From contig JAFGGA010000163.1 of the NCBI GenBank assembly GCA_016930835.1, positions 1-40,799 of the forward strand: 40,799 bases of DNA, given 5' to 3'. Position 1 is the first letter of the stretch. Each line of letters begins with the position of its first letter. The stretch comes from Deltaproteobacteria bacterium. Its GTDB lineage: Bacteria > Desulfobacterota > DSM-4660 > Desulfatiglandales > HGW-15. The position numbers and the translations under genes were made by a program. Of the stretch, positions 280-4,623 are shown one piece after another. The notes under the pieces are model-generated. The model saw only the letters and a program-made list of their open reading frames with translations, did no database searches and was not told the origin of the DNA.

Positions 280-1512
280 ATGCAACACTATTTCAAAAAT
301 GTCTTAAATACCTTATCAGCTGTTTCCAGTCGGCATAAAGGTATGATGTCCCCGCAAAAAAAATTCGCTCTTGAGGTAGCGAGATTGGGTTATCTTCTAT
401 ATTCCACTGAAAAGCCCGTGGCCTGGTGTGGGGTGGCAACGCCTTTCGAGCTGTTGCATGCCATGGGTGTCACATCGTGCTTTGTGGAGTATATAGGCGC
501 GGTGCTGTCCGCTGTTGGGGATATTGATTCAATGTTGGAAACAGCCGAGCGGCATGGATATTCAACCGATATCTGCAGTTATCATCGTTCCGTTCACGGG
601 GCGGCCCTCCGATCCATGATGCCCACGCCGGATTTTCTCATCGCCACGACCAGCCCATGCAGCAGTGGTTTTGCGACGATTGAGCAATTTGCAGAATATT
701 ATTCAAAAGATCTTTTTGCGATTCACGTACCCCAAAATTCAGACCCTGAATCTGTTTCGTACCTGGCCGCTCAATTCAAGGATATGACGGCGTTTGCCGC
801 AAAGCATACAGGTCGATCCATTGATTCGAATAATTTGCGAAATGTCATCAAGCAGTCGAACAAGGCCAGGAGCGTCATGCTGGATGTCTATGAAATGGCT
901 AAGGCGATACCGACACCCGTACGTTCAAAAGATATGATCAATTTATATTATCTGATGTCCTTAATCATGGGTTCAGAGTATGCAGTTGAGATGGCCGAGG
1001 CCTACCGGGATGACTTTATGAATAAAATGAAAAATAAAAAACAAGGCCTGGCAGGAGAACAAATTCGGTTAATGTGGTACCAGAATCGAATTCAATTTAA
1101 AAATCCCTTGGAGCGAATGCTGGAAAATGAATTCAAGGCGGTCGTGGTGGTAGATGAGTTAAATGATATCACTTGGGACCCGATCGATCCGGATGACCCG
1201 TACGAAGGACTGGCAAAAAGAATCTTAAATAATCCATTGGTCGAATCCTTGGATAAACGTATTGAACACCTTATAAAACTGGCGCAGACCTATCATGTAG
1301 ATGGTATGATCAACCCCTGTCATTGGGGATGTCTTCAGGGTACGGGGGCCAGAGGATTGGTTGAAGCCGGATTAAAAAAGGCCGGCATACCGGTTTTAAA
1401 TCTGGAGGTCGACTGTGTGGATGCAAAAAATTTTTCTGAGGGTCAGGCACGTACTCGCTTGCAGGCCTTTATTGAGATGTTGCTGGAGCGAAAGGCGACG
1501 GCAGATCCATAA
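280..1512 (+). CDS. 2-hydroxyacyl-CoA dehydratase family subunit (HgdB/BcrB-like)
   Basis: A 410-residue protein of the 2-hydroxyacyl-CoA dehydratase/benzoyl-CoA reductase D-component family. Members carry a [4Fe-4S] cluster and take part in radical alpha,beta-dehydration of 2-hydroxyacyl-CoA thioesters or in reduction of aromatic CoA esters. Visible hallmarks are the N-terminal TPFELLHAMGV segment (residues 54-64), Cys99, Cys127 in the SPCSSGF segment, NPCHWGC (345-351) and the C-terminal LNLEVDCVD. These cysteines are the likely cluster ligands. Length is normal for one subunit. The start is supported by GAGGA nine bases upstream. The usual partner subunit and the ATP-dependent activator (HgdC-like) are not next to it, so it is an orphan gene here and its substrate cannot be named. 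A GC-rich hairpin follows the stop. Confidence 0.88.
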   Translation: MQHYFKNVLNTLSAVSSRHKGMMSPQKKFALEVARLGYLLYSTEKPVAWCGVATPFELLHAMGVTSCFVEYIGAVLSAVGDIDSMLETAERHGYSTDICSYHRSVHGAALRSMMPTPDFLIATTSPCSSGFATIEQFAEYYSKDLFAIHVPQNSDPESVSYLAAQFKDMTAFAAKHTGRSIDSNNLRNVIKQSNKARSVMLDVYEMAKAIPTPVRSKDMINLYYLMSLIMGSEYAVEMAEAYRDDFMNKMKNKKQGLAGEQIRLMWYQNRIQFKNPLERMLENEFKAVVVVDELNDITWDPIDPDDPYEGLAKRILNNPLVESLDKRIEHLIKLAQTYHVDGMINPCHWGCLQGTGARGLVEAGLKKAGIPVLNLEVDCVDAKNFSEGQARTRLQAFIEMLLERKATADP

Positions 1513-2871: not shown

Positions 2872-2922
2872 CCATTGCTCAAACAGCATTTCATCTTAAT
2901 CATCCCCAAGGAGGTTCCCTGA

Positions 2923-4623
2923 ATGAATGCAGATCATGCAAATCCGGAATATGAAGTCATGAGTCCATGGGCGGAGGCTGATCCCATTCCGCTTAAAGGA
3001 ATTACCTCACGATTAACAGTCCTGGAAAACAAGACCATCGGATTGTTCCATAATTCCAAACGTGCCGCGCGCCCCATTCTGAGCGTGGTGGAAACCAAAT
3101 TAAAAGAAAGATATCCTTCAATGAATTTCAGCAGCTTTCTGCTTATGCCCAACGCAGGTGTTGATGAAACCGAGGATCGGGAGCGATTTGACGAATGGGT
3201 AAAAGAAGTCGATGCCGTCATCCTCGCATACGGGGATTGAGGTTCATGCACCAAGTACCTTGTGTACTGTTCAATCTCCACGGAAGCCAGAAACAAGCCA
3301 TCCATAACACTCGTCAATGAAGGTTTTGCCAATGATGCCGGATCTGCAGCATCGAGTAAGGGTATGCCGGGAATCCGCTTTATCCCAACACCCATCCCCT
3401 GTGAAGCGAGTGTGATGAAAGACATCGAGGCGGGTATCGACCAGACGCTAGATGCCATTATCGATGGTCTGATCAAACCATTAACGGCCGAGGAAACCTC
3501 TCCAAAACCAAAAGAAATGGAGGCACCTTCAAGGATCGTATTTCAAGGGAACCTTGATGAGACCAACCTGTTTTTTTACCGAAGGGGATGGACGGATGGT
3601 CTGCCCGTTATTCCACCCACTGAGGCAGCGGTTGCCGAGATGCTGACGGGAACGGACCTGCCACCGGATCATCTGGTGGGCAAACTTATCCCACGGTTGG
3701 GGAAAGTGACCGTCGAAAAAATCGCGGTTAATGCGGTCATGGCCGGTGCCTTGCCCACCTATATGCCTGTATTGGTAGCCGCTGTCCAGACCCTTATGGA
3801 TCCCGGGTCCAATTTCGGCACCTGGGGCGTCAGCACGGGTTCATGGGCGCCGTTTTGGGTGATCAACGGTCCCATCCGTAACGACATCCGCCTCAACTGC
3901 GGCACTGGGGTCTTAAGTCCCGGTGATATGGCCAATGCGGCCATCGGCCGTACCATGGCGCTCATTATTAAAAATATCGGGGGAGCCCGTAAGGGCGTGG
4001 AGGATATGGGGACCCTGGGGAATCCTGGGAAATACAGCTTGGTCATCGCGGAAAATGAGGAAAAAACACCTTGGGAACCGCTTCATGTCGAATACGGCTT
4101 TAACAAGGAAGACAGCACCGTGATGGTATCCTCCCCCAATACCTATTTGCAGATATGGCCGTATGGTTCGGATGATGAAGGTATTTTACGGGCCATTGTC
4201 TACAACCTCATCCCCAGAGGAGGACCATTTATTATCATCACGCCGCAACACGCAAAAATCCTGGCGGACAGAGGCTGGACCAAGCGAGACATCAAAGAAT
4301 TCATCTCTAGATATGCGAGGGTGCCAGCCTACCAACTTCCGACCTATTGGGGAACCAGCAGCCCCATGACCACACCAGGCGCCCGGCCAGGGCTATATAA
4401 AGGAAAAGTTCCCATGAGGGAAACGGACATGGTGCCATTGATTCATGATCCCGGTGACATATCCATACTGGTGGCTGGCGGGGCAGGCGCGTTTATCGGT
4501 CTGCTCATGCCGGTAGGTGTGTTCGCAAGCCGAAAGACCACTCGGAAGATCGAACTGCCCAAAAAATGGAAGGCATTGGTCAACAAATATAAGAATGTCG
4601 TACCGACATATGCGAAGTATTAA
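2923..4623 (+). CDS. UGSC-family selenoprotein fused to a large C-terminal domain (TGA at 3238-3240 = Sec106)
   Basis: The reading frame is open on both sides of TGA 3238-3240, which is followed by GGT TCA TGC. This gives U106-G-S-C, the defining motif of the UGSC (seleno)protein family. Read through, the product is 566 residues. Residues 1 to about 183 are the UGSC domain: a Rossmann-like start (IGLFHNSKRAARP), DAVILAYGD-U-GSC, then IRFIPTPIP and a helical tail. A linker leads to a second domain from about 205 to the end (FFYRRGWTDGLPVIPP near its start). A hairpin at 3247-3266 fits a bacterial SECIS. AAGGAGG precedes the ATG, and a TTGACA promoter lies upstream. Its biochemical function is unknown to me; Sec next to Cys suggests a redox or metal-binding site. 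A nonsense mutation is the alternative, but family position and sequence quality on both sides argue against it. The stop codon interlocks with that of the convergent FAD oxidase gene. Confidence 0.85.
3247..3266 (+). promoter_or_regulatory. Candidate bacterial SECIS hairpin
   Basis: TGCAC-C-AAG pairs with CTT-GTG-TA with one bulged C, around the loop TAC (3256-3258). Opening the top G-C pair gives a GUACC loop containing the G-U typical of SelB-binding hairpins. The loop lies 16-18 bases after the UGA, in the usual bacterial range. Found by eye; no folding energy was computed. Confidence 0.5.

Follow-up and report, generated by a model that had tools for sequence, protein, structure and literature searches.

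Proteins of the UGSC family are among the commonest selenoproteins of ocean metagenomes (255 sequences in PMC2398784), and the literature examined gives no function for them. A 'Trx-like fold' was suggested for UGSC in 2008, and in the same year Figure S1A of PMC2398784 reported a fusion of UGSC with a conserved but functionally uncharacterised domain, 'Unknown_1'. The other described system that bears on the present locus is protein B, by which is meant here the GrdB selenium-subunit system of the glycine, sarcosine, betaine and fluoroacetate reductases. Glycine reductase, too, is fed by thioredoxin (PMC10298544), and the fluoroacetate reductase FarB/FarE (PMC10838667) suggests that GrdB-type selenoproteins adapt to other substrates by duplication. 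UGSC and GrdB are treated as separate families in the literature examined, and a partial search found no statement that links them.

The window, the whole 40,799-nucleotide stretch that was analysed, belongs to a deltaproteobacterial genome of 4.7 Mb in 224 contigs and carries a fused UGSC gene on its forward strand. A sequence-only reading had proposed a single frame from 2923 to 4623, broken solely by TGA at 3238-3240 and giving U-G-S-C; translation confirms this, yielding 566 residues with one TGA read as a residue, a terminal TAA, and the motif U106-G-S-C109. As that reading anticipated for standard gene callers, the unrecoded frame falls into exactly two fragments, 2923-3240 (105 residues) and 3262-4623 (453 residues, GTG start), and the domain limits that it gave (to about residue 183, and from about 205) match the profiles. 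Judged from sequence, decoding of the TGA as selenocysteine to give a single fused product is almost certain. The features of the gene are as follows.

2908-2914, forward strand: ribosome binding site AAGGAGG, 8 bases 5' of the ATG, read in the sequence
2923-4623, forward strand: fused UGSC selenoprotein gene, 566 residues, single in-frame TGA, stop TAA (frame translation; full-length homologues L025 and L026)
2965-3471, forward strand: UGSC domain, residues 15-183, PF24696 (Pfam, GrdB profile alignment, AlphaFold2 model)
3238-3240, forward strand: TGA codon 106, selenocysteine (translation, homologues, sel genes)
3247-3249, forward strand: Cys109 of the UxxC motif (Cys in 52 of 59 aligned sequences)
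3254-3268, forward strand: weak candidate SECIS hairpin AGUAC(CUUGU)GUACU, with GU in the apical loop and the loop starting 18 nt past the UGA
3262-4623, forward strand: false 453-residue open reading frame with GTG start, expected from a standard gene caller in the unrecoded frame
3526-4620, forward strand: partner domain, about residues 202-566, without a Pfam, NCBIfam or PDB relative

Cys109 is the probable resolving partner of Sec106. About 1.4 kb upstream of the gene, on the same strand, lies a gene for the D-component of 2-hydroxyglutaryl-CoA dehydratase (HGD-D; window positions 280-1512).

The Pfam UGSC model matches residues 15-183 across the TGA with 92.2 bits against a gathering threshold of 25, and the motif has selenocysteine followed by cysteine three residues on (U106-G-S-C109), as the family requires of its first (Sec or Cys) and last positions. 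With the NCBIfam model NF041046 (UGSC_fam) the score is 79.6 bits where an equivalog needs 125, so the window protein represents a divergent branch rather than an equivalog. An AlphaFold2 model of the UGSC domain (pLDDT 74, pTM 0.77) is a beta-alpha-beta sandwich in which Sec106 opens the helix after the third strand. VIA-align places small GTPases, flavodoxin-like reductases and receiver domains at near-equal Z (8.7-10.3), matches that are taken only as a common arrangement; no thioredoxin is among the matches listed, which excludes nothing. The flavodoxin/Rossmann-like model speaks, with moderate confidence only, against the 2008 suggestion of a 'Trx-like fold'.

A relationship to a characterised enzyme emerged from profile comparison. 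In HHalign, a profile of 57 UGSC domains and one of 12 GrdB-type sequences aligned over 91 columns with a probability of 96.1% (E 3.4e-9), selenocysteine being placed on selenocysteine (UGSC on UGTC), and the probability was still 92.1% when the motif columns were masked; 60 column-shuffled GrdB profiles gave at most 1.0%, and a reversed profile 1.5%. The GrdB motif in the same phylum reads VIITSTUGTCTRCGATMAKEIEKAGIPTV (L095). Because the score survives masking while the controls stay low, the UGSC domain can be regarded with good confidence, on profile evidence, as a remote homologue of the selenocysteine-bearing end of GrdB. The full GRDB model (PF07355) has no match in the source genome and none in the window protein, which, without the rest of that model, is not a member of GrdB; a sequence search found no GrdB structure in the PDB. 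In many genomes (L100-L105 and similar) the GrdB model picks up short proteins, some 150-240 residues long, over its last third only; these are possibly a further small relative.

The partner domain has no relative that could be found in Pfam, NCBIfam or the PDB. Weak matches to HisF (E 0.001) disappeared with a 47-sequence profile, and a full-protein AlphaFold2 model built with five sequences was unusable for the C-terminal domain (mean pLDDT 45), so that the Foldseek result from it was discarded. No relatives were found in viral contigs or phage records. Profile comparison detected no relation of the partner to GrdB or to a GrdC-like cluster, and gave 0.1% for a GrdE-like cluster, which was named by reading its sequence rather than by family search. 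Near-invariant polar residues include D225, N338, R343, E377 and W384; the alignment shows no conserved cysteine, so a GrdE/PrdA-like pyruvoyl group is not expected, and the window protein lacks the GrdE-type pyruvoyl partner of a protein B complex.

The tie between the two domains is nearly complete. The partner profile matches 38 of 395 genomes, and 37 of these fall within the 38 genomes that have UGSC (Fisher p ~1e-49). UGSC and partner lie close together in one frame, UGSC first, in 41 cases; where UGSC is short, a same-strand partner gene adjoins it, preceding UGSC in 18 cases and following it, in a different frame, in 8; in these split forms homologues of the second domain do stand beside separate UGSC genes, as had been suggested for checking. 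For 23 UGSC matches the partner is not among the matches listed, which comprise the best five scored candidates per genome; a true absence does not follow from this. On a quick unrooted tree of 67 pairs, the partner-first order comes near to forming one group (2 changes) and the fused state needs 9 changes, at least 5 of them forced by well-supported branches, which indicates that gene fusion or fission has been repeated. That UGSC and its partner nearly always co-occur and have been joined repeatedly is good evidence for their acting together; genome linkage thus strongly supports the earlier proposal of a functional partnership between the second domain and the selenocysteine site, and the two domains very probably constitute one functional unit.

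The neighbours of the pair indicate where its electrons may come from. A TrxB-type flavoprotein gene (TIGR01292) lies on the strand of the pair in eight loci of different phyla, three of them scoring above the cut-off: it follows the pair by 11-12 bases in L082 and L084, follows it in L089 and L120, and precedes it in L086, L088, L092 and L114, the order in L092 being trxB-trxA-partner-UGSC. L092 (Arthrobacter) and L089 (Roseovarius) are split pairs of the cysteine form. Strong TrxB matches number two or three per genome in the three genomes counted, from which fewer than one chance neighbour is expected in the neighbourhoods read (a rough hand estimate). No trxB gene adjoins the window gene itself. 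Other recurrent neighbours encode CoA-transferase III, MmgE/PrpD, and the TctA/TctC (tripartite tricarboxylate) and DctP (TRAP) transporters, and further ones acyl-CoA ligase, enoyl-CoA hydratase and DUF6282; they are mostly catabolic rather than oxidative-stress genes. Two plasmid fusions of Vibrio and Sporomusa (L090, L091), which have MGTS in place of UGSC, adjoin genes for aconitase X and DUF126.

These observations suggest that the product of the window gene is probably a selenium-dependent reductase. From the TrxB-type neighbours, the organic-acid and CoA neighbours, the link to GrdB and the precedent of FarB, we infer a thioredoxin-fed reductase of small organic acids in which the partner would hold a substrate for attack by selenocysteine; that it works in this way, by analogy with protein B, is given even chances. 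The UGA at 3238-3240 would be read as selenocysteine to give one protein, whose partner domain would most likely bind and activate the substrate. The selenolate of Sec106 might then attack the substrate to give a covalent Sec-substrate intermediate, which Cys109 would release by forming an Se-S bond, and this bond would be reduced by thioredoxin, itself fed by a thioredoxin reductase that is sometimes encoded in the same operon. Each paralogue would probably have its own substrate, a small organic acid or the corresponding CoA ester. The combination of a constant partner, a relative among characterised enzymes and a likely electron donor turns an 'unknown redox protein' into a testable reaction.

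The strongest alternative makes UGSC an ordinary redox module of thiol-disulfide or peroxide chemistry, which keeps its partner protein or enzyme reduced, as might be expected from the UxxC motif, from the prevalence of thiol-redox proteins, which make up the majority of prokaryotic selenoproteins, and from the thioredoxin genes beside some pairs. It is considered unlikely, given that the modelled domain is a flavodoxin/Rossmann-like sandwich with no thioredoxin among the matches listed, that profile homology points to GrdB, and that the pair is surrounded mostly by catabolic rather than oxidative-stress genes. Somewhat less probable again is some other chemistry, such as that of a lyase, hydratase or isomerase, in which selenocysteine would be a nucleophile or ligand and most of the catalysis would fall to the partner domain. 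The partner stays intact in persisting paralogues that have Ser, Thr or Met at the site, it has many near-invariant polar residues, and CoA, PrpD and aconitase-X enzymes are neighbours, all of which would suit such an enzyme; yet selenocysteine is otherwise strongly conserved and is exchanged mainly for cysteine, in plasmid homologues, and the linkage to trxB suggests a net reduction.

The gene family is expanded. UGSC copies number 12 in the source genome and 15, 17 and 23 in three relatives from its family, but are missing from several further genomes of the same family. Besides the window gene there are eleven further UGSC-partner fusions, on C119, C221, C132, C167, C198, C207, C129 (two), C142, C68 and C57 (L029-L038). 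Neither Sec nor Cys occupies the site in L037, L038, L064, L090 and L091; PTSS or PSSS replaces UGSC in L037 (C68) and L038 (C57). An in-frame TAG in C68 was ruled out as a second selenocysteine codon, being well before the motif. In the second C129 paralogue (L035:4765-6524) the frame is lost near the C-terminus and a different one carries the rest of the partner domain, the result of a frameshift or a sequencing error. Hydrophobic, signal-peptide-like starts are found in L031, L035:2535-4469 and L038; their sequences suggest exported forms, which would be a bad fit with a cytosolic thioredoxin partner. Copies without Sec and Cys, or with such a start, fit the reductase model poorly.

The evidence that the TGA encodes selenocysteine comes from several directions. 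Genes whose presence the sequence-only reading had made a test of its proposal are all in the source genome: SelA (616 bits), SelB (404 bits), SelD (374.5 bits) and a tRNA-Sec with anticodon UCA. A second tRNA-Sec-like match, near an EF-Tu-like match, proved to be tRNA-Trp. An in-frame TGA also lies within SelD of this genome (G000:C103:21087-22016, L135). TGA stands at the motif in 10 of the 12 UGSC genes of the source genome (UGSC, UGTC, USTC, UGSF, UGIC, UGVC), the other two having neither Sec nor Cys there, and 83 of the 91 UGSC matches in 395 genomes of the phylum contain exactly one TGA. The motif codon is TGC or TGT in seven plasmid homologues (haloarchaea, Neorhizobium, Variovorax, Roseovarius and Arthrobacter), the hosts of these cysteine forms being haloarchaea and aerobic bacteria; a TGA form in Paracoccus has selB a few kb away. 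The expectation of Sec or Cys in homologues at the motif therefore holds for most of them, but a few have neither. Two public plasmid records, of Acidovorax and Paracoccus, end the homologous gene at the TGA, a clear case of misannotation.

Across the family a hairpin recurs that has some 6-9 pairs and a loop lying 18-19 nt past the UGA; its median energy is -9.2 kcal/mol, compared with -2.5 for codon shuffles, and at the SECIS position it beats 95% of shuffles in 45 of 56 UGA loci; it is absent from three relatives (L065-L067). In the window, the hairpin at 3254-3268 beats 97.7% of codon shuffles; a stricter hairpin rule finds no SECIS there, and shuffles of the stretch fold freely just as well as the stretch itself (z +0.5). 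This weak hairpin is the one soft spot of the selenocysteine reading. Compared with L025, pN is 0.35 and pS 0.81 before the TGA, and 0.26 and 0.75 after it; nonsynonymous change well below synonymous change on either side indicates purifying selection on both. Taken together, the sel genes, the 10 of 12 TGA copies, the cysteine homologues and the hairpin across homologues make the TGA almost surely a selenocysteine codon. That it is a true stop or a sequencing error, and the halves a broken gene or two separate genes, gains something from the weakness of the window's own hairpin but is very improbable in view of the cysteine homologues, the full selenocysteine machinery, the purifying selection on both sides, and the full-length homologues, about 57% identical, in two independent Dehalococcoidia-type records that have TGA in the same codon.

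Compared with the UGSC family (PF24696/NF041046), the window protein has in common the motif with Sec or Cys first and a full-domain Pfam match, and differs by the partner domain in the same chain and by a sub-cut-off NCBIfam score. The UGSC/Unknown_1 fusion from the Global Ocean Sampling data (PMC2398784) resembles the window gene in that UGSC is joined to a conserved unknown domain, and the fusion is accordingly not new in kind; Unknown_1 is probably the partner domain of the window protein. With GrdB (PF07355) the window protein shares a homologous C-terminal region, the Sec of UGTC falling on the Sec of UGSC, and GrdB is linked to thioredoxin; the large N-terminal part of GrdB is absent from the window protein, whose partner has no detectable kinship to the GrdE-like or GrdC-like clusters of that system. 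FarB/FarE (PMC10838667) likewise has a GrdE-type partner, unlike that of the window protein. A tentative extension of these comparisons, doubtful as a whole, is that UGSC and its partner may form a two-domain counterpart of protein B that dispenses with a pyruvoyl subunit and cleaves carbon-heteroatom bonds of organic acids, present in more than 20 copies in some anaerobes with one substrate each, and constituting an unrecognised thioredoxin-driven class.
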